A stretch of 60,103 bases of DNA, from positions 1 through 60,103 of the forward strand of contig JAAYOH010000024.1 of the NCBI GenBank assembly GCA_012520375.1. Reading direction: 5' to 3'. This document shows, in pieces, positions 40,835 through 60,103 of this stretch; position 1 is the stretch's first letter; each line of letters starts with the position of its first letter. Under the pieces are notes generated by a model that saw only the letters and a program-made list of their open reading frames with translations, had not been told where the DNA came from and did not search any database. Made by a program: the position numbers and the translations under genes. Origin of the DNA: Clostridiales bacterium (lineage in GTDB: Bacteria; Bacillota; Clostridia; Christensenellales; Aristaeellaceae).

Positions 40835-41986
40835 CTACAGGAACAAGCTGTCCATCAGTTCCTCAAAGCTCAGGGCAAAGGGCAGTCCCGCCAGGTTCCC
40901 GCTTTGCCCCAGGGTCTCTTGGCAAGCCCTGTGCCATTCCCCCCGGGATCTCCCCCCCAAACCCATTTCCTCTAGGGCGGTGGGAATGCCCACCTCCCGG
41001 CACATCCCAAGGTAAGCTGCGCAGTCCAGGCCGCAATGGCGCATCATGGGGATGGTGGCAAAACCCACCCGCAACCCGTGGGGTACGCGGTGGGCTGCGT
41101 CGAAGAACAGGAATACCTCGTCCAGCAAGTGGGCAAAACCGGTGGTGCAGATCATGCCCAAAGGTCCGCAGTTGTGCAGGATCATGGAGATCACGTTCTC
41201 AAAGGCAGGCGTGATCCGCTGCGACTGCACTGCGCGCATGGCCTCGGGAGCACGTCGAATCATAAGGTCGAAGGCCAGTTGCACTCCCTCCACCGCCAGA
41301 TCGGGCACCGCATCCCGGTTCCCCGTCATCTTCAGGTTGCACAAAGCTTCGCAGTAGGTGCTCATGATATCCCCAATGCCCGCAGCCAGCATCTGAGGCG
41401 GATTGCGTACGAGGACGCTTGTATCTACCAGCACCAGGTCAGGGGCGTTGTCCATGCGCCAGTATTCCCGGATGGTTGCGCCGTCATGAGCGTACAATAC
41501 GCTGAGGGTGGAGATGCTGGCGTTGGTGGCACACAAAGTAGGCACCAAAATCACCCGCACATCGGCAAAGCGGGTGAGGGCCCGGGCAAAATCCTGAGCC
41601 CTTCCGCCCCCCACCCCTGCCACCGTATCAAAGTGGTGGCCCCGCACATACCGGGCTACCCGCCGGATCCCTTCTTCCTCCACCACGGCCTCTCCCAGAT
41701 CCATGAATTCGAAGTGCATCTCCTTCCGCAGGGCATCCAGACGCTCGGACATGGGCACATAGCGGGCGTAACGGGGAGACACAGCAGCCAGATCCGGATC
41801 CACGCTCTCCCGGGAGGGAGTAGCGATGCCCAGACGCAGTTTCCCCTCGATCTCCTCCCGCACCGGGTCGCACATTTCCAGGATCAGCACTCGTTTCCCG
41901 ATCAGAGCGGCGAATTTGGGGAATTGCAGCAGGGCATCCTCACACTGCACGTAGCGCCGGGGGACATGAAACTCATAAAAGCTCAT
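40835..41986 (-). CDS. Iron/zinc-dependent alcohol dehydrogenase, glycerol dehydrogenase-like
   Basis: 383 residues from ATG 41986 (AGGA upstream). Family: GldA-type group III dehydrogenases. The NAD-binding GVGGGRAQDFARAL and VPTLCATNASISTLSVLY blocks match GldA, as does AAGIGDIMSTYCEA (metal Asp) and the histidines in GFAHLLDEV and HRVPHG. Where GldA has Thr-Asp-Ala in the second block this protein has Thr-Asn-Ala, so the polyol substrate may differ from glycerol. Overlaps the upstream isomerase gene by 14 nt. Confidence 0.87.
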   Translation of the reverse strand: MSFYEFHVPRRYVQCEDALLQFPKFAALIGKRVLILEMCDPVREEIEGKLRLGIATPSRESVDPDLAAVSPRYARYVPMSERLDALRKEMHFEFMDLGEAVVEEEGIRRVARYVRGHHFDTVAGVGGGRAQDFARALTRFADVRVILVPTLCATNASISTLSVLYAHDGATIREYWRMDNAPDLVLVDTSVLVRNPPQMLAAGIGDIMSTYCEALCNLKMTGNRDAVPDLAVEGVQLAFDLMIRRAPEAMRAVQSQRITPAFENVISMILHNCGPLGMICTTGFAHLLDEVFLFFDAAHRVPHGLRVGFATIPMMRHCGLDCAAYLGMCREVGIPTALEEMGLGGRSRGEWHRACQETLGQSGNLAGLPFALSFEELMDSLFL

Positions 41987-42977
41987 GGCATTCGTCCTTT
42001 CCAAAAACGGCACGTCGGATGACGCCCAAGGTCTTGGGCACATTTCCCTCCCGGATCAGGGCATCGATTCCCTCAACCCCCAGCTTGTCCACCACCCGGA
42101 CATAGTCCTTCATGCACAGGATGCTCTCTGCCACCGCATCGATGCTGTCCTCCCGGTAGGGGAAAATGTCCACCGACACATAGCCCGGATATTCGTACTT
42201 CTCTAGTAGATAAAAGGCTTCCAGCATCTCGTTCAGCCGCACTGAACCCACGATCATGTCGTCGTCCCAGGCGCCGTAGTTGTCGTTGGTGTGCAGGTTG
42301 TATAGAGCATTTTCCGAAAGAGCCAGGCTGATAGAGGTGCCAAGCCCCTGGCCCCCGGCAAGCACATGGCCGGTATCCAGGGTGATGCCCAGGTTGTCTC
42401 GGCCCGTCATATAGCGCAGCAACAACACGGTCTGCACGTTGTCAATGAGAGAACGATTCCGGGGTTCCCGGGGCTTGGGCTCCAGGGCGATGGGCATGCC
42501 CTCTGCATAGTCGCACAGTTCCTTCAGGCTGTCCACCAAAGCGTTCCACTGGGCACGGTAATCGGTTTGAAAGGCATAGTCGAAGCCGTCCTGCCCCAAC
42601 CATATCCCCACTCCCAGGGCGCCCATATACCTGGCCGTGTCGATGGTGCGTTTGCTGCGCTCCACCGCCATGCGCCGGACCTTTGGATCCGCTGCGGACA
42701 GGGCGCCGTATCGCCACATCCGTTCCCCGTAGATCCAGGTATTCAAGTAGGTGAGGGGAAGGTCCAGCTCCTCCAGCTGCCGTTTCTGTTTTTCCCAGTG
42801 CCCCTCGGGTTCGCTTCCGCCATAGTGCAGCTCTACTCCCCGGGCCAGGCCCCGAGCCGCCATTTTATCGATAGCCTCGTCCAGGGGCATGGTGCGCTCC
42901 TTGTAACCCGAGCGCAGGAAACGGCATCCGCTTTGGCACAGGGAGCCCGCGATAAAGGAAAATCGATCAAAGGCCAT
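41973..42977 (-). CDS. TIM-barrel sugar isomerase (xylose isomerase-like)
   Basis: 334 residues, AP endonuclease 2/xylose isomerase-like fold. Metal-site segments are visible: IALEPKPREPRNRS (Glu), LGITLDTGH (Asp, His), NLHTNDNYG (His) and VSVDIFP. The EPK and LDTGH pattern resembles L-rhamnose/xylose-type isomerases more than the tagatose epimerases. AAAGGGG precedes the start. It overlaps both neighbours (11 nt with the epimerase gene, 14 nt with the GldA-like gene). The substrate is unknown. Confidence 0.85.
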   Translation of the reverse strand: MAFDRFSFIAGSLCQSGCRFLRSGYKERTMPLDEAIDKMAARGLARGVELHYGGSEPEGHWEKQKRQLEELDLPLTYLNTWIYGERMWRYGALSAADPKVRRMAVERSKRTIDTARYMGALGVGIWLGQDGFDYAFQTDYRAQWNALVDSLKELCDYAEGMPIALEPKPREPRNRSLIDNVQTVLLLRYMTGRDNLGITLDTGHVLAGGQGLGTSISLALSENALYNLHTNDNYGAWDDDMIVGSVRLNEMLEAFYLLEKYEYPGYVSVDIFPYREDSIDAVAESILCMKDYVRVVDKLGVEGIDALIREGNVPKTLGVIRRAVFGKDECHELL

Positions 42978-43839
42978 ACGCGTCCCCTTTCCCTTTCAAA
43001 AAAACCACGGCTTGCGCCATCTCCCCGTCGGGATCCTCAGACAGCCTGCGCCAGATGTTCAGCCGCCCTGCCACCGTGCCGTAAGGCTTGGCCAAGGCCT
43101 CGGTGATCAGGGCGCCGGTATATCCCACATCTTTCAACGCTCCGAAAATCTCGTCCCAGTCCACCTGGGCCCTTCCGGGCATCATACGGTTGTTTTCGCA
43201 GGCGTGAAAGTGCTTCAGATGCTTTCCCGTCCGGCGAATGGCATCCCCCATGCTGACCTCTTCGATGTTCATGTGGAAGCTATCCAGCAGCACCCCCAGA
43301 TGAGGGCTGTCCACCGCCTTCGCAACCTGCACCGCCTCTTCCGCGGTATTCAGGTAGGCCGACTCAAAGCGGTTGATGGCCTCCATACACAATGCAATCC
43401 CCTGATCCCCAGCCATCTGCGCCAGCACCCTCAGGGGCCCCAGGGCGTTTTCCACCGCCCGCTCCCGCATATCCTGGACGCCGGCAGGGAAGTTCTTGCC
43501 GGTACCCACCAGCATACCCCCAATCACCCGGGCGCCGAAGAAGCGGGCTGTTTCCATTTGCTCTTTCATGAAGCGCACCCCGTTGCTTCGGATGGCAGGA
43601 TCCTCTGAAGAGAGATCCCCATGGGGAGGAAAGCCGGTAGCCATGGTGATGCCCAGCCCCAACTCCCGGGCCAAGGCCCGGATGTTTTCCCGCTCAGGCA
43701 TCGGCAGAGTCTGCAGCTTGGATATGCTCATCTCCAGGATGTCCATGTGCGCGGCTTTGGCCCGGTGCAGGCATTCGACCCAATTCACCTCGTCGGAATC
43801 GGCGAGGAAACCATAGTAGACGCCCAGTTTATTCTTCAT
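42967..43839 (-). CDS. Ketose 3-epimerase-like TIM-barrel protein
   Basis: 290 residues from ATG 43839 (MKNKLGVYYGF). The Glu-Asp-His-Glu metal set of D-tagatose/D-psicose 3-epimerases is present in order: CMEAINRFE, VLLDSFHMNIEE, FHACENNR and ALITEALA. Such enzymes invert C3 of free ketoses through a cis-enediolate. The start overlaps the stop of the MDR dehydrogenase gene (ATGA). Confidence 0.88.
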   Translation of the reverse strand: MKNKLGVYYGFLADSDEVNWVECLHRAKAAHMDILEMSISKLQTLPMPERENIRALARELGLGITMATGFPPHGDLSSEDPAIRSNGVRFMKEQMETARFFGARVIGGMLVGTGKNFPAGVQDMRERAVENALGPLRVLAQMAGDQGIALCMEAINRFESAYLNTAEEAVQVAKAVDSPHLGVLLDSFHMNIEEVSMGDAIRRTGKHLKHFHACENNRMMPGRAQVDWDEIFGALKDVGYTGALITEALAKPYGTVAGRLNIWRRLSEDPDGEMAQAVVFLKGKGDAYGL

Positions 43840-44870
43840 GCTCTTCCCTCCCACCGGGGTCCGATCAGGACTTTTCCCGTCCGGCCTCCGAAAAATGCGT
43901 CGTACGCCTCCCCCATCCGGTCAAAACCATAGCGGTGGGTAATCAAACCCATGATCTCTCCCCGTTGCGCCCGGATGAAGGCCAGGTTCTCCTGAATCTC
44001 CCGGACGGGAAAATACCAGCTGTTGATCAGGGAGAAGTCTTTGAGGATCCACTCGGACTCCCGCTGGATGTGCAGGGCTTTCTTGGGTTCTCCGATATAT
44101 ACTACTTTGCCTCCCGCCTTCACATATTTCACCGCCGCCGCCGTAGTGGCTTCCAGTCCGCACACCTCCAACACGATGTCCACCCGGGTTTCCCCCAGCA
44201 CCTTTCCGATGGAGCCGGAGGTGTCCTCGGGGTCTACCGGGATGGGCTGTGCCCCCAGTCCCTCCGCAAGTTTCAGGCGGGCGGAAGAAGGATCCGCCGC
44301 GAAGATTTGGCCGATTCCATAGAAATGCCGGAGGATGGGGATGCAACCCAGCCCGATGGGGCCGCATCCGATGATCAGGACCCGCTCCCGGGAGCCGGGC
44401 TCTGCCTGGCGCAGAGCATGGAAAGCAGTACCCAGGGTATCCAGGGCCAACACCCCAAGGTCCGTGGGCAATTCACCGATAGGATACACCATGTGCATGG
44501 GTGCCAGGACATACTCTGCAAAACCTCCGTCCATGTGCCAGCCCATGAGTCTGCCCCGCCTGGTACAGCGGTTGGTATCCCCTTCCCGGCAGGCCTCGCA
44601 GCACCGGCAGTATTCCGACAGGTAGATCACCACCCGGCTGCCCACCGGCAGCGCATTTGCGCCATCCCCGCAGGCCGCCACCGTGCCGGCGCTCTCATGG
44701 CCGGGTACCACTGCCACCCCGTTTTCCAGGGCCGCCCGCTCGGATCCGCACAGGCCACACCAGTCGATCTTCACCAGGAGCTCCCCCGTGCCCGGACTCG
44801 GGACGGGCTTCTCTGTCACGAGGATCCCTCCCTTTCCCGTAAACCGGACCACTTTCATGTATCCATCCAT
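43836..44870 (-). CDS. Zinc-dependent MDR alcohol dehydrogenase
   Basis: About 344 residues from ATG 44870; ATG 44858 (MKVVRFTGKG) is possible. Medium-chain dehydrogenase: catalytic-zinc Cys in WCGLCGSE and His in VPGHE, structural-zinc cysteines in CRCCEACREGDTNRC, and the Rossmann motif VLIIGCGPIGLG. It probably oxidises a sugar or polyol hydroxyl with NAD(P). It follows the binding-protein gene after 101 nt containing a strong hairpin and begins a tightly overlapping four-gene group. Confidence 0.9.
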   Translation of the reverse strand: MDGYMKVVRFTGKGGILVTEKPVPSPGTGELLVKIDWCGLCGSERAALENGVAVVPGHESAGTVAACGDGANALPVGSRVVIYLSEYCRCCEACREGDTNRCTRRGRLMGWHMDGGFAEYVLAPMHMVYPIGELPTDLGVLALDTLGTAFHALRQAEPGSRERVLIIGCGPIGLGCIPILRHFYGIGQIFAADPSSARLKLAEGLGAQPIPVDPEDTSGSIGKVLGETRVDIVLEVCGLEATTAAAVKYVKAGGKVVYIGEPKKALHIQRESEWILKDFSLINSWYFPVREIQENLAFIRAQRGEIMGLITHRYGFDRMGEAYDAFFGGRTGKVLIGPRWEGRA

Positions 44871-50549: not shown

Positions 50550-50569
50550 AGAGCCAGGGGGTGAGCGAT

Positions 50570-51427
50570 TTGTCGGCACTGACCGAATACAAAGACATCA
50601 CGGACTTTCCCGCCCAGCACTATTTGCAGATCAACAACTGCGGCATGCGCAGCGAGATTCGCCAGGGTATGACCATTTACCGTCCCCGGGGCAGGAGGGA
50701 TCACTACCTGCTGTACCTGCAAAGCGGCAAAGTACTGATCCAGCAGGGGGAAGACATGATCCCCCTGAAGGAAGGCAGTTGTTTGTACTATCCTCCCCAT
50801 ACGCCCCATCTGTACACCTTTGCCGACGACCGTCCCGCTTCCTACTACTATGTCCATTTCGCCGGGGAAGCCGCTGACGAATCCATGGCCATGGTGTCCC
50901 CTCGGGCGGACGGTCTGTACGAGATCCGGGACCGGGCAGTATTCGAAAATCTGTTCCATCGGTTGCGTATGGTGTACGACACCCATCACGTGTACGGGGA
51001 ACGGAAACGGCCCATGGCTTTTCCCGAGATCAACGGGGTACTGCTGGAGCTGATCGATGCCTTGATCCGCTCCAGCAAGCCGGCGGAGAAGCGCAGCCCC
51101 GGAGAGATCATGCTGGCTTCAGCCTATATCCTGGAGCACTACACCGAGGAGATTGACCTGGAACAGTGCGCCGCCAATGCCCACTTGAGCCTGAGCCGCT
51201 TTTCCCATCTATTCACCGAGCGCATGGGGGTATCGCCCCGGCGCTTCATCCTCCAGCTGCGCATCGATAACGCCAAGGAACTGCTGCTCTACTCCTCCCT
51301 GAACATCAGCCAGATCGCCGAGAGTGTGGGCTTTTCAGACCCGTCCTACTTCTCCCGGCTGTTCAGCAAGTACACCGGGATGTCCCCTCAGCGCTATCGG
51401 AAGGAGCGTAGGGAAAGGAGAGGCTAA
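50570..51427 (+). CDS. AraC family transcriptional regulator
   Basis: 285 residues from TTG 50570, which has AGGGGG 8 nt upstream; GTG 50561 touches that site and is less likely. N-terminal cupin-like ligand domain (LYLQSGKVLIQQGEDMIPLK, HTPHLYTFADD) and C-terminal double helix-turn-helix (EQCAANAHLSLSRFSHLFTE, then SQIAESVGFSDPSYFSRLFS). It is the only plus-strand gene in the 20-kb catabolic island, lying between its two operons, so it very likely senses the substrate and controls both. It ends one base from the convergent aldolase gene. Confidence 0.92.
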   Translation: MSALTEYKDITDFPAQHYLQINNCGMRSEIRQGMTIYRPRGRRDHYLLYLQSGKVLIQQGEDMIPLKEGSCLYYPPHTPHLYTFADDRPASYYYVHFAGEAADESMAMVSPRADGLYEIRDRAVFENLFHRLRMVYDTHHVYGERKRPMAFPEINGVLLELIDALIRSSKPAEKRSPGEIMLASAYILEHYTEEIDLEQCAANAHLSLSRFSHLFTERMGVSPRRFILQLRIDNAKELLLYSSLNISQIAESVGFSDPSYFSRLFSKYTGMSPQRYRKERRERRG

Positions 51428-51428
51428 G

Positions 51429-52247
51429 CTATCCCGCGCCCAGCCGACGGATCCGGTCCACCGCAAAATCTTTCACCGCCCGGGTTGGCTCCCGCATGAA
51501 CAGGTCCACAGGCAACACTTGGTCCCCCATGGCCCGGACCCCGTCCAGGAAGGCGTAATACAAGTCGGTGGCAAAGTTGACCTTGCGCACGCCCGCCTCT
51601 ATGGCCAGTCGCAACTGCTCGTCGGGCACGCCGGAACCTCCATGGAGTACGATGGGCAATCCGGTGCGTTCCCGGATTGCCCGGGTGCGGGGGATGTCCA
51701 GCACCGGAGCTTTTTTGTAGCGACCATGGGCAGTGCCCACCATGACGGCCAGTGCGCTCACTCCGGTCTCCTTGGCAAAGCGTTCGGCTTCCTCCAGGTC
51801 CGTAAAGTCGCTCATCTTTTCGTCCCGTACGCCCCCCACATGGCCCAGTTCTCCCTCCACAGGGACCCCGCAGGCTTCGCACAGTTCCACCGCCCGGCGG
51901 GTGACCCGGATGTTCTCCTCCAGAGGCAGAGCGGAGGCATCGATCATGACGCCGTTGACGCCCAGCCGCAGGGCCCGCAGTACCTGTGGGATGTCCGCGC
52001 CGTGATCCAGGTGAAAGGCGGCGGGGGTCTTCAGTTGCCGGATCGCCTCGTGGATCATGGGGGCCACGAAGGAAGCGTCGGGGTTGTCAAACAGCCGGCT
52101 GTACATCTGGAAGATCACGGGGGCGCCGGTCTCTGTGGCAGCCTGCATAACCCCCACTACCGCCTCCATGTTGCACACGTTGAAAGCAGGGATGGCAAAT
52201 CCCCCTGCATCCCCCAGCGCCAGAATCTCTTTCAGGTCGCATACCAC
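51429..52247 (-). CDS. Class II fructose-bisphosphate/ketose-bisphosphate aldolase
   Basis: 272 residues from GTG 52247, with GGAGG 8 nt upstream (the reading extends 12 codons further without signal). Zinc and catalytic residues are in place: HLDHGAD, GELGHVGG, GTAHGRYK and VLHGGSGVPD. It cleaves a ketose phosphate to DHAP plus an aldehyde. With the kinase and isomerase encoded just upstream, it likely cuts a ketose-1-phosphate or bisphosphate made from the imported sugar. It is the last gene of its operon and convergent with the AraC gene. Confidence 0.9.
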   Translation of the reverse strand: MVCDLKEILALGDAGGFAIPAFNVCNMEAVVGVMQAATETGAPVIFQMYSRLFDNPDASFVAPMIHEAIRQLKTPAAFHLDHGADIPQVLRALRLGVNGVMIDASALPLEENIRVTRRAVELCEACGVPVEGELGHVGGVRDEKMSDFTDLEEAERFAKETGVSALAVMVGTAHGRYKKAPVLDIPRTRAIRERTGLPIVLHGGSGVPDEQLRLAIEAGVRKVNFATDLYYAFLDGVRAMGDQVLPVDLFMREPTRAVKDFAVDRIRRLGAG

Positions 52248-52260
52248 ATCCTTTTCCTCC

Positions 52261-53652
52261 CTACTCCATATTGTCCGCTGCAAGTTTCGGGATGTATCGG
52301 CAGAATTCCCGGAGCTCGGCCCGATAGTCCCCCTCGATCTCCGCCATATGATGAATATAGGGGCCGTAGATCAGCTTCTTTTCCCAGGCGTCCAGGTCCT
52401 TGAAACGGGCCCACAGATAGGTGCCGTTGGTAAAGGGGCCCTCCGCCGTCTCGCAGATCCCGTTCAGCAACCTATAATTCCCATCTTCCTGGTCGAAGCG
52501 GGACACGGTATACGTGCCCTCTTTCACTTTGAACCAGGCCCGCTGCTCGTATGTCCGGGGGGCGCTTTTCGGGTCCCTGGTGGAATAGGGGAATTGGCCG
52601 CAGTGCCACAGCAGTTCCACGTTCCGATCCTCGGGATGGCGTACCGTGAATTCGCCGAAGAAGGGTGCCTTCTTGCCCCGGGCGGCACAGGACAAAAGCG
52701 CAAGGCTGATGGCGCCGTGGAGATCGCTCTCGCAGCTGACGATATAGCCCATGTCAAAGAGCACGGTATAGGCAATGCAGGGCAGGGCGCCGCAGGCCAG
52801 ACCCATGGAGGTCCAACACTCCGAGGAGATCACATTGACCCGGTACTCCTCAAAAATCTCTTTGTATAACAGCACAAAAGCCCAGATCCGGGTGAGCAGG
52901 GGCTCGGTGAGTTCGTCTACTGCGTACATCTTCCGAAGGATCCCGGCCCCTTCCGTCAACTCCGTACCCCGCTCTTCCATAATGCGTCGGAACTTCTGCT
53001 GGATGACGGCCATGTTCACCGGGACAATCTGGATGCCGAAACGCTGCATCAGCTCACCCTCGTTGAAAATGACGCTGCAGAAGGGCTTGGGCCTCATGCC
53101 GATCTCGGCGATGCGCATGCCCCGGAAATTGTTCACCATGCAGGCCACAGAGGCAAATTGCGTCAAGCCCCGGGCAAAGATCTCGTCGGTCACCCGGCAA
53201 CAGGATAGGTGGGTGAAGGGCACATTGTAGCGTTGCAACTGCCGGGCTACGCCGAACAGGCCGCACTGGCTATCGGTATGCCGCAGCCCGTCGGGCTCGA
53301 ACACGTCGTCCAGGGGCGCCCAGATCAGAGTAGGCAGATCCAGTGCCCGAGCCACCATGGCGGCAGCCTCTTCATTGCCGAAGTTGCCGTTGATGATAAA
53401 AATCCCGTCCACCTTTTCCCGGCGCATGCGTTCGATTACCGCATCCACGTCGTTTTCCGAGAACAGCACCTCCACCGGATTGATCCCCTTCAGGTCAACA
53501 AAGGAGAGGCCTTCGTCGGTGAAAGTATCTTCTATATACTTGACCAATTTCCGGCAGCGCTCCTCGGCGTATTCCCAGTTGAACATGCCGGGCCGGGGTG
53601 AGCAGTCCCGGCGAATGGGGATCAGCCCGATCTTTACCGCATATTTGAGCAT
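52261..53652 (-). CDS. L-fucose/L-arabinose isomerase-like protein
   Basis: 463 residues from ATG 53652; an in-frame GTG one codon earlier overlaps the kinase stop. It belongs to the fucose isomerase-like superfamily (two Rossmann-like N-terminal domains and a C-terminal beta domain): DGIFIINGNFGNEEAAAMVA, LIWAPLDD, MRIAEIGMRP and the metal-region NVISSECWTSMG then SCESDLHGA. These interconvert aldoses and ketoses with Mn2+. Sequence is divergent from true FucI and AraA, so a different sugar or acid is possible. One-base overlap (TGATG) with the kinase gene. Confidence 0.82.
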   Translation of the reverse strand: MLKYAVKIGLIPIRRDCSPRPGMFNWEYAEERCRKLVKYIEDTFTDEGLSFVDLKGINPVEVLFSENDVDAVIERMRREKVDGIFIINGNFGNEEAAAMVARALDLPTLIWAPLDDVFEPDGLRHTDSQCGLFGVARQLQRYNVPFTHLSCCRVTDEIFARGLTQFASVACMVNNFRGMRIAEIGMRPKPFCSVIFNEGELMQRFGIQIVPVNMAVIQQKFRRIMEERGTELTEGAGILRKMYAVDELTEPLLTRIWAFVLLYKEIFEEYRVNVISSECWTSMGLACGALPCIAYTVLFDMGYIVSCESDLHGAISLALLSCAARGKKAPFFGEFTVRHPEDRNVELLWHCGQFPYSTRDPKSAPRTYEQRAWFKVKEGTYTVSRFDQEDGNYRLLNGICETAEGPFTNGTYLWARFKDLDAWEKKLIYGPYIHHMAEIEGDYRAELREFCRYIPKLAADNME

Positions 53653-54662
53653 CACCGCTTCCCTCCCACGTCCTGGCCAAAAAAGCCATGCTTATAGTGG
53701 CTCTCCCGCCGGTCGATCTCGGCGGTGTCGATCTCCCCGGTCTCCAGGAAGCGCAGTACGTTGCCCAGGGTGGGAATGCCGGCGCGCCCCCCCTGTCGGG
53801 TGCATTTGATGGCGGAGCAAGCAGAGCAGAAACGGGCAATCTCCGGGACCGTCCAGCCCTTCAGGTAGCCGTAATTGAAAGCGCCGTGGAAAACGTCCCC
53901 CGCCCCGGTGGAATCCACCGTTTCCACCGTAAAAGCCGGAGTCTCGAAGTACTGATCCTTTCCATACACACCAAAACAGCCCTGGGTACCAAAGGTAAAA
54001 ATAACGATCTCCGGGCCCCTTTCCCGGATATACCGGCAGGTCTCCGCCCGGCTCATCTCCACTCCCATCTCCCGTTGCATGGTGTTGTAGTAGGTTTCCG
54101 AGGCGATGAATATGTCCAGTATATCGTAGTGCTGGTAGATGTCGGGGCGATAATAGGCGGCGTCGATGCTGATCTTGCCCCCCGCGGCCCGGACAATCTC
54201 ACAGGCCCGCAGCACCACGGGGTTGGTGTAGCCGATGTGCATGATTCTGGTTGCCCGCAGGAAATCCTCGTCCAGGTCCTCCAACTCGATCTCCCGGCAA
54301 GTACCCCTTTTGCTGATGAACTCCTTGCCCTCTATCGCCCGCTCCGTCACCGCAATGCAAAAGTCGGTGCGGGTACCGGGATCCATGATCACGTGGGAGG
54401 TATCCACATGGTTGTAGGCAAAATCCGCCAGGTTGGCGTAGCCAAAAATGTCGTCTCCAACGACGCCCAACATGGCCGCCTTCATGCCAAGCATGCCACA
54501 GGTCACCAAAGCGGTGGGCACATTGCCGCCCCCTTGGAAGCAGTACTCCCTCATAGCCAGATTCTGGTTGCTCCGGGGCAACCGGTCCAGTTCCACCAGC
54601 AAGTCCTGCATGGGGTTTGAGAAGCCGATGACATCGATCGTCTTTTCGACAAAACTGTTCAT
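53652..54662 (-). CDS. PfkB family sugar kinase
   Basis: 336 residues from ATG 54662 (GGAGGA upstream). Ribokinase fold: N-terminal substrate motif CFQGGGNVPTALVTCGMLG and the C-terminal PfkB signature VDSTGAGDVFHGAF with the catalytic Asp. It phosphorylates a free sugar or sugar acid with ATP. Position between aldehyde dehydrogenase and FucI-like isomerase, with the aldolase two genes on, suggests the order isomerase, kinase, aldolase. Confidence 0.92.
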   Translation of the reverse strand: MNSFVEKTIDVIGFSNPMQDLLVELDRLPRSNQNLAMREYCFQGGGNVPTALVTCGMLGMKAAMLGVVGDDIFGYANLADFAYNHVDTSHVIMDPGTRTDFCIAVTERAIEGKEFISKRGTCREIELEDLDEDFLRATRIMHIGYTNPVVLRACEIVRAAGGKISIDAAYYRPDIYQHYDILDIFIASETYYNTMQREMGVEMSRAETCRYIRERGPEIVIFTFGTQGCFGVYGKDQYFETPAFTVETVDSTGAGDVFHGAFNYGYLKGWTVPEIARFCSACSAIKCTRQGGRAGIPTLGNVLRFLETGEIDTAEIDRRESHYKHGFFGQDVGGKR

Positions 54663-54681
54663 CAAATTGTTCCTCCCTCCC

Positions 54682-56106
54682 CTACGGTATCATGGACAGG
54701 TATTTCAGGTCAAAGTACTCCGCCAGAGACCACAGGGATTTATCCACCCCGACACCCGACTGCTTGGTGCCCGAATGGGGCGAGAACTCGGTGCCGCCGG
54801 AGCCGTTGATGAAGATTTCCCCCGCCTCGAAGCCCGAAAAGGCCTTGGCGATATCCGGGGCACGATGCCCGAAGAAATAAGCAGACAAGCCGTAAATGGT
54901 GTTGTTGGCTTTGGAAATTGCCTCGTCCAGGTCCGAGAAGGGCTGTAGGGGGATGATAGGCCCAAAGATTTCCTCGGTGGACACCCGCATGTCGTCGGTC
55001 ACATCCCGGAGCAGGGCCGGAGTAATATAACAGCCCGCCTCAAAGCCCTCGGGGATCGTACCTCCCGAAAGCAGAGAAGCGCCCTTGGCCACTGCGTCCT
55101 CAATGAGGCGGAACATGCGGTCCCGGGCCTCTTTGTTGATCATGGGCCCGATGACATTGCCCGGGTCTTTCCACCTGCCTGGAACCACGTCGGCCAGGCG
55201 TTTTTTCGTGCATTCGATGACCTGTTCGTAAATCTTCTCATGCACATAAATCCGGTTGTAGTTCACGCAGGTCTGCCCCGCAAAGCCGCACTTTTTGGCA
55301 ATGAGATTGGCCACCACCGCATCGGGATCTGCATCGTCCATCACCACCACCGGTGCATTGCCCCCCAATTCGAAGGAGAACTTTTTGATGGAGGTGGCTG
55401 CCTCCCGCATGATGGCCAAGCCGGTTTCGCTGGAGCCGATCAGGGTGATCATCTTGGGGATGGTGCTGCTGTTCAGGGTGCGTCCCACCTCACCGGCGGG
55501 CCCGGAGAGGATATTGATGACGCCGGCAGGGAAGCCGATACGTTCCGCCACCTCCCCCAAATACAGGGTAGCCAGAGGGGTCTGGCTGGAGGGTTTGATG
55601 ATGCAGGTGCAGCCGGAAACAACCGAGGGAGCGATCTTCAGCCCGGCATTGCCGAGGGGATAGTTCCAGGCAAGGTGCCCCACCACCACGCCTACGGGCT
55701 GGCGCTCCACCACATGGATAGAGCCGTCGGTGCCCAGGTTGGGGATCTGGGTACCGTACACCCGCTTGACCTCGTCACAGTAGTAGGAGAAACTGATCAT
55801 GCACCAGTCGAAGTCAGCCTTGGCCAGGGAATAGGTCCTGCCGGACTCTTGGGAGATGAGCCGGATAAATTTGTCGCTCTCCGCCAGGCACGCTTCCCGA
55901 AACTTCAGCAGCCAGGCAATACGCTCCCCTATCGGGGTTTTGGACCAGGTGACGAAGGCGCGCCGGGCAGCTTCCAGGGCTTCCTGAGCCTGGCTGGCGT
56001 CTGCAGAACCCACAACCCCCACTTCTTCGCCAGTGGCAGGATCGTATACGGGAAGGGGTTTGCCCCGTCCCTCCACCGTTCTGCCGTTGATATACTGTTT
56101 GTACAT
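54682..56106 (-). CDS. NAD(P)-dependent aldehyde dehydrogenase
   Basis: 474 residues from ATG 56106 (GGAGGAG upstream). Catalytic Cys in GQTCVNYNRIYVHE, the general base Glu in FELGGNAP, the amide Asn in LAWNYPLGN. The set resembles succinate-semialdehyde and lactaldehyde/glycolaldehyde dehydrogenases (EEIFGPIIPL). In this context it probably oxidises the small aldehyde released by one of the aldolases. One base from the enolase-like gene. Confidence 0.92.
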   Translation of the reverse strand: MYKQYINGRTVEGRGKPLPVYDPATGEEVGVVGSADASQAQEALEAARRAFVTWSKTPIGERIAWLLKFREACLAESDKFIRLISQESGRTYSLAKADFDWCMISFSYYCDEVKRVYGTQIPNLGTDGSIHVVERQPVGVVVGHLAWNYPLGNAGLKIAPSVVSGCTCIIKPSSQTPLATLYLGEVAERIGFPAGVINILSGPAGEVGRTLNSSTIPKMITLIGSSETGLAIMREAATSIKKFSFELGGNAPVVVMDDADPDAVVANLIAKKCGFAGQTCVNYNRIYVHEKIYEQVIECTKKRLADVVPGRWKDPGNVIGPMINKEARDRMFRLIEDAVAKGASLLSGGTIPEGFEAGCYITPALLRDVTDDMRVSTEEIFGPIIPLQPFSDLDEAISKANNTIYGLSAYFFGHRAPDIAKAFSGFEAGEIFINGSGGTEFSPHSGTKQSGVGVDKSLWSLAEYFDLKYLSMIP

Positions 56107-56107
56107 T

Positions 56108-57427
56108 TTATGCTCCTCCTTTTTCAAGCGCCTTGGCCCGCTTTTGATTGCGCCATCCCTTAAGTCCCCGGGCACCCAGGAAGCGAGCGCCGGAGCCAAG
56201 TTCCTCTTCGATCTCCAGCAACCTGTTGCCCCGTTCGCCTATACCGCTCTCCCGGATGGAGCCCGCATTGATTCCTACGGCGTAGTCGCCGATGGCGGCG
56301 CCTTCGCCCCGGCTGTCCGAGGGCATGACCGCGTAGCCAAAGTGATAGGCGTACTGGACCATGTCCAAAGCTTCGGAAATGGTGCCGATCTGGTTGATCT
56401 TCAGCAAGATGGCATTTCCTGCTCCCTGAGAAATGCCGTGGGCAACCCGCCGGATGTCTGTGGTGAACAGGTCGTCCCCCACCACCTGGATGCCGGAATC
56501 CCGGGTGAAAGCCGCAGTGGTCTCGTAATCGTCCTCGTTGAAGGGATCCTCGATGATGCAGAAAGGGTACCGCTCAATGATCTTCAGGTAGAACTTATAG
56601 AGTTCATCCTTGGTTTTCGGTCTGCTGTCGAAGAGGCCGTAGTAGCGCCTGTCCTCCCTGTCGTAGTAGGTGTCTGTGGCCACATCCATCTGGAAACCTA
56701 CCCGCCCCTCATATCCCGTCTCGATGATGGTCTGGGTCATGGCGGCCCAGATCTCCTCGTCACTGTTGAAATAACCCGCCGGAATCGCTATGAAATCCCG
56801 TTGGTTGGGCACGCCGCCAAAGAGCTTTTTCATCTTGTGTGCCCAGCGGGTATGCACCTCCCAGCAAGCGTAGGAGGCATCAGAAAAGGTATCAAAACCG
56901 AAGGCCACGATGGACATGGTGGGTTTTCCCCCCGGGGTGGTGACACCGCCGCCGTAGCGCTCATGCCCGCCCACCATGGCTGCGCCGGGAACGGGCAGGT
57001 ACATGGCCCCCGCACCTCCGATATGCCGATACAGGGGAATGCCCAGGGCCGCCGCCCCCGCCTTGAGTACGGCGGCGGATACCGCAGCCGTGGCGTTGCC
57101 CCCCAGTTCCCGTTTTGCATCGGGCACTACGGACAGGATGGCCCGGTCCACCTCGGCTTGGCGGGAAGCATCCATGCCCACCATCGCGGGGGCAATCACG
57201 TTGTTGATGCGCTCGGCTACACAGGTGACCCCCTTGCCGCCAAACCGCGTGCCCCCGTCAAAGGCAAAACACACCTCATGTGTCCCCACCGAGACCCCCG
57301 ATGTGCATACGGCACGGCCGACCGCCCCGCTTTCGGTGGTGACCAGCGCCTCCACACCAGGCAAGCCCCGGTTGGTATAAACCTGTCTTGCGTGGATCGA
57401 TCGTATTGCTGTTCCAGCCACGTTCAT
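56108..57427 (-). CDS. Enolase-superfamily protein with altered active site
   Basis: 439 residues with enolase-subgroup architecture from end to end. Conserved with enolase: Mg ligands in QMDVATDTYY, CIIEDPF and VVGDDLF, and the catalytic lysine Lys343 in LLKINQIGT. Changed: the DEGG block that holds the general-acid Glu reads IPAGYFN; the QEFM block with the second Glu reads KPTMSI; SHRSGE with the catalytic His reads SDSRGE; and the C-terminal IKTG lysine is Arg (IRESG). This argues against ordinary phosphopyruvate hydratase and for dehydration or isomerisation of another carboxylate. It lies between glycerate 2-kinase (16 nt) and aldehyde dehydrogenase (1 nt). Function unproven. Confidence 0.8.
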   Translation of the reverse strand: MNVAGTAIRSIHARQVYTNRGLPGVEALVTTESGAVGRAVCTSGVSVGTHEVCFAFDGGTRFGGKGVTCVAERINNVIAPAMVGMDASRQAEVDRAILSVVPDAKRELGGNATAAVSAAVLKAGAAALGIPLYRHIGGAGAMYLPVPGAAMVGGHERYGGGVTTPGGKPTMSIVAFGFDTFSDASYACWEVHTRWAHKMKKLFGGVPNQRDFIAIPAGYFNSDEEIWAAMTQTIIETGYEGRVGFQMDVATDTYYDREDRRYYGLFDSRPKTKDELYKFYLKIIERYPFCIIEDPFNEDDYETTAAFTRDSGIQVVGDDLFTTDIRRVAHGISQGAGNAILLKINQIGTISEALDMVQYAYHFGYAVMPSDSRGEGAAIGDYAVGINAGSIRESGIGERGNRLLEIEEELGSGARFLGARGLKGWRNQKRAKALEKGGA

Positions 57428-57443: not shown

Positions 57444-58904
57444 TCACATGATCAAAATGATTCCAAGGTCCAGTGCCGACACGCCATGTGCAGCGTGGAC
57501 GCCGCAGTCCAGCCGCCACAGAGGCTCGGAGGTGGCATGGGTCCGCATGGCCTGCCACAGGTCGATGCCCGCCTCCCGGGCCTCTTCCAGGGTATATCCG
57601 TCCACGATGGCGCCCGCCAGGCACTCCGGAGCGCCGTGGAATCGAAAGCCCCCAGGTCCGTCGGTGCCGTCGGTATCCACCGCGCCGAATACGATGCGCC
57701 GGCTGTCCGCAATGGTGAGGGCTGCCGCCATGCAGTACTCCTGGTTGCGTCCCCCCACCCCGGTTCCGCTGCCCACGGTGACCACGTTCTCTCCCGAGGT
57801 CATCAGCACCACAGGGGGTTGAAAGGGCTCCCCCATGCGCTCCACGCATAGGGCCATTTGAGCATTGACATACCCTGCTTCCCGGGCTTCTGCCTCCATG
57901 TACTCGCTGAGCATGATGCACTGGAGCCCCAATTTTTTTGCCCGCCTGCGCACCGCGGGATACACGGTAGCGTCCTTGAAGATCAGGCCGAAAAAACGGT
58001 CCCCGGTGGCCACAAATTCCGCCACGCCCATGTTTTCGTTGTGGGGCCCTCCCGCCAGCAGATGCTGCCGGATGGAGGCGGGCGTATCCTCCCAGGCCCC
58101 CCACTTTTTGATGACCCCGATAGCGTCCCCGTAGGTAGAGGGAGAGGCGACGGTCGGAAAAAAAGTATTCTTTTCCAGCATCTCGAAATAGCTCGCCCGC
58201 AGGACCGGCGTCCCCATCTTGGCGGGATCCGCCGTGGTCAGGTGTACCTGGGCAGCCGGCCGGAACAACCGCTGCAAGCGGCCGCCCTTGAAACGGTCAA
58301 TGTGGGTGCGCACCTTGTTCAAGTCCCCGGTAGGCACTCCCTTTTCGATTTGCATCAGATGGGTGAAGCGGGCAATGTCCGAAATTTCGATGTCCCCTGC
58401 GGGATAGGTCATGAGGGAACCACAGCCGCTGCCCGAAACGGTGAACACCAGGTCCCGTTCCGTGATGCCCTTCGCCAGGGCTTCGATCTTCCGGCATCCT
58501 TCTACACAGGCCAAATCCGGCAAAGGGTGCCCCGCCAGTGTCACCCCGATGCGTTTGCAGATAACGGGCTCCCCGTGCTTGTCGATGACATGCCCCCCGG
58601 TAAGGCGGTCTCCCAGAACCTCCTCCAGGGCCAGGGCTGCCCGCTGCACACCTTTGGCAGCGCCGATGACGAAGATCCTGTCGAACTCCTTGAACGGGTA
58701 TACCATAGGCCCGGCGTGGGGATCCCCTTCCATTTCAAAATCCCGATCATCTAAAACGATCCCATCCTGCTCCAACCGGACAAGCTGTTTGACCCTGGCG
58801 TACGGGTCCAGGGCGTCCAGGCCAGCATCCAGCAGCTCCGCCACGATCTTCCGGCCCTCCCGATTGCCGTGCGCAGTGAGCGCCCCTTTGTTCAGGATAC
58901 GCAT
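57444..58904 (-). CDS. Glycerate 2-kinase, MOFRL family
   Basis: 486 residues: N-terminal DUF4147 domain and C-terminal MOFRL domain. Signatures: FVIGAAKGVQRAALALEE, VSGSGCGSLMTYP, GTGVGGRNQE and GAVDTDGTDGPGG. The enzyme makes 2-phosphoglycerate from D-glycerate. It starts one base after the aldo/keto reductase stop with no clear ribosome binding site, so it is probably translated by coupling. It provides the link from sugar-acid fragments to lower glycolysis. Some changes around the substrate loop leave room for a related hydroxy acid. Confidence 0.88.
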   Translation of the reverse strand: MRILNKGALTAHGNREGRKIVAELLDAGLDALDPYARVKQLVRLEQDGIVLDDRDFEMEGDPHAGPMVYPFKEFDRIFVIGAAKGVQRAALALEEVLGDRLTGGHVIDKHGEPVICKRIGVTLAGHPLPDLACVEGCRKIEALAKGITERDLVFTVSGSGCGSLMTYPAGDIEISDIARFTHLMQIEKGVPTGDLNKVRTHIDRFKGGRLQRLFRPAAQVHLTTADPAKMGTPVLRASYFEMLEKNTFFPTVASPSTYGDAIGVIKKWGAWEDTPASIRQHLLAGGPHNENMGVAEFVATGDRFFGLIFKDATVYPAVRRRAKKLGLQCIMLSEYMEAEAREAGYVNAQMALCVERMGEPFQPPVVLMTSGENVVTVGSGTGVGGRNQEYCMAAALTIADSRRIVFGAVDTDGTDGPGGFRFHGAPECLAGAIVDGYTLEEAREAGIDLWQAMRTHATSEPLWRLDCGVHAAHGVSALDLGIILIM

Positions 58905-58905
58905 A

Positions 58906-59754
58906 TCAGAAGGCGACAGTATCCGGATCGGGGGCCTCGCCGCAGCTTCCTTCCAGCCCTGCGATCAGCGCCATATCCTCTTCGGATAAGGTAAAGTCAA
59001 AAATTTTCGTATTCTCCAGGATGCGGGCCGGGTCCGCCGACTTGGGCAGGGGCAGATAGCCCATCTGCAGACTCCAGCGCAGGCAAATCTGGCCCACGCT
59101 CCTACCGTACTTCCGGGCCAGGGCTTTCATCACGGGATTTGCAAAGACGCTGCCCGTGCCGAAGGGGCTGTAGGCCTCCACCAGAATGTCGTGGGCGCAG
59201 CAGTAGGCCACTGTCTCCTCCTGGGTGATGCCCGGGCACAACTTCAGCTGGTTTACCATGGGGGCGATCCGGGCAGTCTCCTTCAGCGCCTCCAGGTGGT
59301 GGGGCAGGAAGTTGCTCACTCCGATGGCGCGGATGCGCCCGGCCTGGTATAATTCCTCGAAGGCGCGCCAGGTACCCGCCGTGGCTTCCTTCCAGATGGG
59401 CCGGAATTGGACCGGGTTGGGCCAATGGATCAGATACAGATCCAGGTAGTCCACCTCCAGCTTTTCCATCGTCCACTGGAAGGCTTCCAGGGTAGCGGCG
59501 TATCCGTGGGCAGCATTGCGCAGCTTGCTGGTGATGAAAATCTCCTCCCGGGGGATTCCGCTTTCCCGCACCGCCCGGCCTACGCTGCGCTCATTGCCGT
59601 AGGCAGCGGCGGTATCGATCAGCCGGTAGCCCGCCTCCAGGGCCAGGCTCACCGCACGGGTTCCGGTGTCCTCCCGGCTCTGCCAGGTGCCAAAACCCAG
59701 GCAGGGAATCTGCACCCCATTGGACAGGGTAAAACAGCTTCGTAAAGATTGCAT
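58906..59754 (-). CDS. Aldo/keto reductase
   Basis: 282 residues from ATG 59754 (GGAGGA upstream; ATG 59769 is within the binding site region). Catalytic tetrad: Asp in LIDTAAAYGNE (with Tyr), Lys in FITSKL and His in LIHWPNP. NADPH-binding C-terminal LPLPKSADPARILEN. It probably reduces a short aldehyde or keto sugar in the same route. 21 nt after the KDPG-type aldolase. Confidence 0.93.
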   Translation of the reverse strand: MQSLRSCFTLSNGVQIPCLGFGTWQSREDTGTRAVSLALEAGYRLIDTAAAYGNERSVGRAVRESGIPREEIFITSKLRNAAHGYAATLEAFQWTMEKLEVDYLDLYLIHWPNPVQFRPIWKEATAGTWRAFEELYQAGRIRAIGVSNFLPHHLEALKETARIAPMVNQLKLCPGITQEETVAYCCAHDILVEAYSPFGTGSVFANPVMKALARKYGRSVGQICLRWSLQMGYLPLPKSADPARILENTKIFDFTLSEEDMALIAGLEGSCGEAPDPDTVAF

Positions 59755-59775
59755 ATTCTCTTCCTCCATGGCCTG

Positions 59776-60103
59776 TTATCCGTTGTTGCGCATATCCACC
59801 ACGTTCATGATACTGTGGCGCATGTTGGCTGAGATCTGCCGGAAATCCCGACGGGCAAGAGCACCCTGCTCCTGGAACATCCAATCGCCCCCCGCCGCCA
59901 GTACGCCTTTATGCTGCAGCAACGGCAGGAAGTTGGAGCCGTCCAGGCCGCCGGTGACCACAAAGCGCACGCCCGGGAATGGACCGCCATTGAACTGGGC
60001 CAAGGTTTTGACGCCGCCCATCTCGTAGACCGGGAAAAACTTGACGATGTCGATGCCGTTGTGCAGAGCCATCATGATCTCCGTGGGGGTCACACAGCCG
60101 GGC
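59776..60103 (-). CDS. KDPG/KHG aldolase, C-terminal part (5' end outside window)
   Basis: The reading frame is open to the window edge; about 108 residues visible of a protein normally near 210. It matches the C-terminal half of bifunctional 2-keto-4-hydroxyglutarate / 2-keto-3-deoxy-6-phosphogluconate aldolases: PGCVTPTEIMMAL, IVKFFPVYEMGG with the last Lys-Phe-Phe-Pro strand, and VVTGGLDGSNF at the phosphate-binding loop. The Schiff-base lysine is in the VKFFP segment. It cleaves KDPG or a related acid to pyruvate plus aldehyde. The promoter and start lie beyond the edge. Confidence 0.88.
   Translation of the reverse strand, partial: PGCVTPTEIMMALHNGIDIVKFFPVYEMGGVKTLAQFNGGPFPGVRFVVTGGLDGSNFLPLLQHKGVLAAGGDWMFQEQGALARRDFRQISANMRHSIMNVVDMRNNG

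Follow-up and report, generated by a model that had tools for sequence, protein, structure and literature searches.

Within a very versatile superfamily, which also includes the acid-sugar dehydratases of the mandelate racemase/muconate branch, enolase (EC 4.2.1.11; TIGR01060, PF03952 + PF00113) is regarded as a branch almost restricted to one reaction. A homologue inside the enolase subgroup, carboxyphosphonoenolpyruvate synthase of phosphinothricin biosynthesis, reportedly catalyses another reaction and so sets a precedent for such a change. As for kinases that could supply the enolase substrate, class II (MOFRL) glycerate kinases are described in PMC2063504: characterised members yield 2-phosphoglycerate (2-PG), three measured enzymes use L-glycerate at 13-34% of the rate with D-glycerate, and the class is recognised by the motif D-X(0,2)-G-X(0,1)-D-[GP]-X(4)-[APS]-[ACDGST].

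The gene analysed here, ENOL, encodes an enolase-like protein from a gut Clostridial genome; the window, i.e. the whole stretch of DNA that was analysed, comprises 60,103 nucleotides. Members of the same clade were found at 19 loci, to which the counts of neighbouring genes refer; some of the genes missing from these counts reflect contig ends. The operon and the adjacent regulator consist of the following features:

59776..60102, minus strand: Eda, KDPG/KHG-type aldolase, truncated by the contig end (identified through a full-length relative; 15/19 loci)
58906..59769, minus strand: AKR, aldo/keto reductase (Pfam; 16/19 loci, one partial)
57444..58904, minus strand: GlyK, divergent MOFRL/DUF4147 glycerate-2-kinase-like protein, 486 aa (Pfam, above cut-off)
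56108..57427, minus strand: ENOL, enolase-like gene, 439 aa, the subject of this study (ORF, Pfam, NCBIfam, alignment, fold model)
54682..56106, minus strand: ALDH, aldehyde dehydrogenase, with an ATG start at 56106 (longer, with a TTG start, in the ORF list; PF00171, 438.8 bits; 15/19 loci)
53652..54665, minus strand: PfkB-family sugar kinase (Pfam; 14/19 loci)
52261..53655, minus strand: isomerase-like protein, 464 aa (SftI match, 102 bits; 13/19 loci, one a fragment)
51429..52283, minus strand: FBA2, class II ketose-bisphosphate-type aldolase (PF01116, 273 bits; 12/19 loci)
50561..51427, plus strand: AraC-type regulator gene, divergent to the operon (named from sequence, without a profile scan)

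The minus-strand genes are read in the order Eda, AKR, GlyK, ENOL, ALDH, PfkB, isomerase, FBA2, separated by 6, 1, 16, 1, 16, -4 and -23 bases. The name of Eda rests on its relative L030:6223-6876, which matches TIGR01182 above the cut-off (175 bits). The isomerase-like protein gave no match in Pfam or among solved structures, and its sole NCBIfam match is SftI.

The ENOL reading frame is complete, with an ATG start 16 bases past the GlyK stop codon and GAAGAAGGGG directly upstream of it. Pfam identifies both enolase domains above cut-off (Enolase_C: 163 bits; Enolase_N: 117.6 bits), while the score against the NCBIfam enolase model eno (TIGR01060) is 274 bits, under the equivalog line at the curated cut-off of 300; the clade copies score 275-299 bits, all below 300. 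The closest relatives with solved structures are enolases (252 bits and lower). The structure predicted from 30 aligned sequences is of high quality (pLDDT 90, pTM 0.90) apart from residues 157-161 (pLDDT < 50), and each of the 50 matches listed in a structure search with this model is an enolase, the top match among those listed superimposing with Z 47.8 and rmsd 2.1 over 403 residues at 34% identity. The full-length alignment with enolase reported in the first-pass annotation is thus borne out by both the Pfam domains and the fold. The mandelate racemase/muconate profile is not the best match of ENOL in the Pfam scan (MR_MLE_C: 34.2 bits, residues 283-371, versus 163 bits for Enolase_C); ENOL shares the superfamily with that branch and could likewise have a role in sugar-acid catabolism, but its catalytic lysine, N-terminal domain and fold are those of enolase proper. 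Carboxyphosphonoenolpyruvate synthase, with which ENOL is likened by description only, belongs to a natural-product pathway, whereas ENOL is encoded in a sugar operon. No account of an enzyme such as ENOL was found in a literature search whose coverage excluded most subscription journals.

For the analysis of the active site, 19 clade members (the window protein, the G002 copy and 17 loci) were aligned with 29 other enolases; enolase residues are given in yeast numbering. The codons concerned are:

56957..56959, minus strand: codon of R157, which replaces His159 and opens the clade motif RYGGGxTTP (alignment)
56918..56926, minus strand: codons of K168-P169-T170, which replace Gln167-Glu168, K168 being inserted (19/19)
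56792..56794, minus strand: codon of F212, which replaces the general acid Glu211 (19/19 F versus 29/29 E)
56684..56686, minus strand: codon of D248, metal ligand, kept (19/19 + 29/29)
56549-56551, minus strand: codon of E293, metal ligand, kept (19/19 + 29/29)
56474-56476, minus strand: codon of D318, metal ligand, kept (19/19 + 29/29)
56399..56401, minus strand: codon of K343 (yeast Lys345, general base), kept (19/19 + 29/29)
56309..56317, minus strand: codons of D371-S372-R373, which replace His373-Arg374-Ser375 (alignment)
56252..56254, minus strand: codon of R392, which replaces Lys396 (19/19 R versus 29/29 K)

Residues S46, D248, E293, D318 and K343 (yeast Ser39, Asp246, Glu295, Asp320 and Lys345) are invariant in all clade members and all other enolases, so that the metal carboxylates and the catalytic lysine are kept as the first-pass annotation had stated; in terms of yeast enolase, Asp209 is also retained. 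In contrast, H159, E168, E211, H373, R374, S375 and K396 are all substituted. His159 (H in 29/29 others) is R157 in 19/19 clade members; Glu168 (E in 28 of the others, D in one) is T170 in 19/19; Glu211 is F212; His373 (H in 28 of the others, A in one) is position 371, with D in 17 and E in two clade members; Arg374 and Ser375, unaltered in 29/29 others, are S372 and R373, each in 19/19; and Lys396 is R392. Additionally, the inserted K168 is invariant in the clade. The acid system Glu168/Glu211/His373 of enolase is therefore absent from all 19 sequences, where T170, F212 and D/E371 stand instead: on the leaving-group side two acids have been lost and two bases gained, and an acid now lies beside the old phosphate site.

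The four altered sites named in the first-pass annotation do differ from enolase, and the losses of the QEFM glutamate, the SHRSGE histidine and the IKTG lysine (now T170, D/E371 and R392) hold as described; the list was incomplete, lacking the change of His159 to R157, the Arg/Ser swap at 374/375 and the inserted K168. The pairing of the DEGG block with IPAGYFN, on the other hand, was wrong, as the alignment places DFIA opposite DEGG (D211 kept, E211 replaced by F212). It had also been considered that the general acids might be preserved elsewhere: the loop that formerly held E168 contains no new invariant Glu or His in the 19 clade members, but a conserved D/E371 occupies the His373 site. 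It is very unlikely that such an active site performs the D-2-phosphoglycerate enolase reaction in the usual manner; an altered activity is likely, and the residue pattern indicates that the substrate is probably other than D-2-phosphoglycerate, or else is held in another way than by enolase. Another variant active site is seen in L020:1501-2766, the sole enolase-family match of G044, in which Ala occupies the His373 column and the Glu168 column holds Asp.

The relatives of ENOL were collected by scanning a collection of species genomes with six peptide patterns derived from the ENOL sequence, which yielded 46 sequences; of these, 17 share 59-75% and 29 share 25-40% identity (a scan of this kind could overlook copies in the range 40-59%). 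The G002 copy was found separately, in a search of the genomes of 59 relatives. The other 18 clade members share 58-76% identity with the window protein. The first-pass annotation had proposed a tree of the enolase subgroup; in a tree of 60 rows the ENOL clade is monophyletic, with a single origin (support 100/100) and a long stem of 2.39 changes per site, compared with branches of at most 0.6 within the clade. It falls outside a 36-row group that contains the Clostridial enolases used, and a recent copy of the host enolase was accordingly dropped as an explanation; the exact branching point of the clade is unsure, since that group has a support of only 95/62 (midpoint root). Ka/Ks ratios were 0.008-0.070 in 7/8 clade pairs, the eighth having a saturated Ks and no computable ratio; as Ks exceeds 1 in 4/7 pairs, the three closest pairs (0.008, 0.024, 0.045) are the safest. 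The clade is under strong purifying selection and the replacements are not decay: their invariance in 19 copies at this level of identity, together with the low Ka/Ks, places them beyond chance. A class-wide scan found the clade motif RYGGGxTTP in 6/391 Clostridia genomes, namely the window's own genome (G000) and those of L029, L030, L035, L037 and L040, without any new member, from which we conclude that ENOL is rare and scattered.

Does ENOL serve as the enolase of its genome? In the own draft genome (95% complete, 106 contigs), a search for a canonical eno, as the first-pass annotation had advised, returned ENOL as the sole match, both with Enolase_C and with the enolase model, yet 13/19 carriers (12/17 other carriers and G002) have an ordinary enolase above cut-off; no second enolase was found in 6/19, i.e. 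the own genome and, by the cut-off, 5/17 others. ENOL is therefore an extra enzyme in most carriers, and a general housekeeping role was dropped; in the six carriers without a second enolase it may nonetheless act as a plain enolase. Of 60 genomes, the own one and those of 59 relatives, 24 have an enolase-family match of any kind and 21 have one above cut-off, whereas phosphoglycerate kinase (PGK) is present in 55. When only genomes with a completeness of 90% or more and a contamination of 5% or less are counted, the numbers are 21/44 for an enolase match (own ENOL counted) and 42/44 for PGK, so that the missing enolases are not accounted for by incompleteness. PMC6118326 describes the same enolase gap for rumen Butyrivibrio and others, and a 2024 review (PMC11187502) still calls it open for rumen bacteria. 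ENOL does not fill this gap in general, because the same-genus genome G001 has neither ENOL nor an ordinary enolase; the idea of a gap filler for enolase-less relatives was abandoned, a full-length ENOL-type match occurring only in G000 and G002 among the 60 genomes. Enolase fragments under the cut-off, of unassigned type, lie at contig ends in G007 and G030. ENOL is thus found in gut Clostridia that have many relatives without a recognisable enolase, and, with a score only just below the enolase line, it could be mistaken for the missing one. A second, weaker PGK homologue (G000:C85:27798-28928, 340.6 bits) accompanies the normal one in the own genome, and two PGK matches each were noted in G001, G018 and G020.

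The partner of ENOL is constant: GlyK is encoded directly upstream in 19/19 loci. Its DUF4147 and MOFRL domains score above the Pfam cut-offs, its solved relatives include PH0495 (174 bits) and the TM1585-type structure 2b8n (125 bits), and its predicted structure has a pLDDT of 80. Although the domains are like those of class II glycerate 2-kinases, GlyK scores only 80.5 bits against the NCBIfam glycerate 2-kinase model (cut-off 550), and the published class II motif, which fits 2/2 solved relatives, is found in 0/17 aligned GlyK sequences (19 known). Judged by these sequences, GlyK has diverged from its own family in parallel with ENOL.

Two loci carry this pair without the remainder of the operon. 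In L042, GlyK-ENOL is flanked on one side by IMP dehydrogenase/GMP synthase and on the other by restriction-modification genes; the genes upstream are the same in L041 (where the two synthase-type genes are named by clustering with those of L042), whose contig stops after ENOL. A Pfam search found no PF01081 aldolase in either genome, while two positive genomes gave aldolase matches, and the best Aldedh matches are 47.6 and 55 bits, compared with 458 and 454 bits in the two positive genomes. As L041 and L042 are close relatives, the stand-alone pair amounts to about one independent case. Ordinary glycerate kinases of class I occur in 6/19 carriers, own genome included, which neither favours nor harms the reading that we prefer.

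Starting from what is observed, namely the conservation, the fold, the gene pairing and the extra-copy status in most carriers, we consider it the best single explanation, though one held with less than even confidence, that ENOL acts directly after GlyK and converts a 2-phospho-acid to phosphoenolpyruvate (PEP) or a close analogue; the order of the steps, the chemistry and the substrate are what we infer. GlyK, by family, would phosphorylate the 2-OH of a small 2-hydroxyacid; ENOL would hold the resulting 2-phospho-acid on the retained two-metal site, Lys343 would abstract the proton at C2 and the group on C3 would depart, giving PEP or a near analogue, while turnover of D-2-PG would require the lost E168/E211. 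This is supported by the metal ligands and lysine kept in 19/19 sequences while the other substrate contacts are replaced, by the presence of GlyK in 19/19 loci including L041/L042, by the parallel divergence of GlyK, by the use of L-glycerate by class II glycerate kinases, by the ordinary enolase in 13/19 carriers, and by the single origin and purifying selection of the clade. Also in favour, the GGS motif of Eda is GGD in 14/14 sequences and ALDH is without anion-site Arg in 15/15 (Arg171 column: L/I/V; Arg289 column: G, with T in one); from these two features the aldehyde between Eda and ALDH is probably uncharged, e.g. glyceraldehyde. More specifically, and more tentatively, the two proteins may form a catabolic module in which a dedicated 2-hydroxyacid kinase is followed by a lyase derived from enolase; PEP would then arise from a phospho-acid that is not D-2-PG, and the phosphate and leaving-group pockets would be exchanged. 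Such an exchange would suit 2-phospho-L-glycerate, in which phosphate and CH2OH would swap places if the carboxylate and C2-H were bound as in enolase, and the guess of L-glycerate as the starting acid rests on the fit of a pocket swap to the loss of E168/E211, the gain of R157/K168 at that place and the position of D/E371 by the phosphate site, as seen in a ligand-free model whose R157 loop is poorly modelled (pLDDT < 50). Taken alone, 2-phospho-L-glycerate is an unlikely candidate for the substrate. The combination of variable front-end genes and a constant core fits a small common acid: beside the stand-alone pairs of L041/L042, L039 has the same core together with a PfkB protein (29%), an aldolase (37%), a xylulokinase-like gene, GH4 and a LarA-type gene. 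The pairing of GlyK and ENOL could also reflect a shared pathway instead of consecutive steps. A conserved clade that keeps the metals and the base of enolase, replaces the other contacts and is tied to one kinase shows an active site changing its job, and, as far as the residues can tell, this small pair probably catalyses a new reaction.

The first-pass annotation had foreseen a different substrate and a new activity, which agrees with the distinct clade, the sugar-catabolic operon and the altered active site, and it had named a sugar acid or a glycerate-type acid as examples of the substrate; an unphosphorylated sugar acid is less well supported. According to this second choice, possible although improbable beside the kinase-lyase pair, the substrate of ENOL is an acid sugar without phosphate, dehydration of which yields a 2-keto-3-deoxy acid; Eda splits the latter to pyruvate and an aldehyde, ALDH produces glycerate and GlyK 2-PG, as in the non-phosphorylative Entner-Doudoroff route. 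The components of that route (Eda, ALDH, GlyK) occur together in most loci, Eda and ALDH in 15/19 each, and the phosphate-site residues R374/S375 of ENOL are altered. The change of GGS to GGD in Eda (14/14) removes its phosphate-site Ser. Moreover, a TRAP transporter, of a type that often serves acids, is present in L045. However, the constant neighbour is the kinase and not Eda, the L041/L042 genomes lack both a PF01081 aldolase and any Aldedh match above 55 bits, which lowered the case for ENOL feeding Eda, and the pocket appears to have gained positive charge, which would suit phosphate or another anion.

That ENOL is, after all, a 2-phosphoglycerate enolase with an odd active site, working on the D-glycerate of the operon and in glycolysis too where it is the sole enolase, we consider improbable. 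It is the sole enolase-family gene in its own genome and, by the cut-off, in 5/17 other carriers, its partner is glycerate-kinase-like, and the metals and lysine are kept; but E211, E168, H159, R374, S375 and K396 are replaced in 19/19, 13/19 carriers have an ordinary enolase as well, and G001 has neither.

A sulfosugar route was initially attractive and is now very improbable. Here, the isomerase, PfkB and FBA2 would lead to sulfolactaldehyde, ALDH to sulfolactate and GlyK to 2-phospho-3-sulfolactate, from which ENOL would expel sulfite to give PEP, a departure that requires no general acid. The only family match of the isomerase is SftI, at just 102 of 700 bits, and sulfofructose kinase is the third-best solved relative of PfkB, yet the column of YihV Arg138, presumably the sulfonate Arg of sulfofructose kinase, is Y/L/M/F/E in 13/13 aligned PfkB sequences. 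A 12-member gene cluster located upstream of Eda proved to be Ldh_2-like in each of three scanned loci, with L-sulfolactate dehydrogenase as the best NCBIfam match in 3/3, at a score far under the cut-off and almost equal to that of ureidoglycolate dehydrogenase; NIR_SIR domains occur in 12/19 carriers, mostly in frames of ~310 aa, a count that without a background rate carries little weight. Against these, the Asp of Eda would repel an anion, the sole GH31 near a locus is nearest to alpha-xylosidase, and ALDH is without Arg171 and Arg289, the residues proposed in PMC10599462 to bind the sulfonate in sulfolactaldehyde dehydrogenase and described there as His/Asn in other enzymes. It was these site checks in ALDH, PfkB and Eda that lowered the sulfosugar pathway.

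Least probable of all, if only slightly, is that GlyK phosphorylates the 3-OH (or another OH) as a leaving group and ENOL expels phosphate to give a keto acid, which would explain the lost general acid and the constant kinase together, but would spend ATP where dehydratases need none, and the T. tenax enzyme is reported in PMC2063504 with 2-kinase activity only.

Further genes recur around these loci. An SDR gene was found near several of them (9 members, one scanned), and a DUF4867 protein (L030:16037-16684; members in L036, L037, L040 and L044) lies near FBA2 (5 members, one scanned). A family of 670-691 aa proteins is encoded near two operons (L040:2904-4916, L037:14252-16327), of which the L040 member matches nothing in Pfam or NCBIfam. 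In the window, ABC transporter genes are followed by an Fe-ADH-type gene and by two genes of the xylose-isomerase-like TIM-barrel kind (40835-43854, minus strand); Fe-ADH-type genes are found near the operon also in L043 and, judged from sequence similarity alone, in G002.
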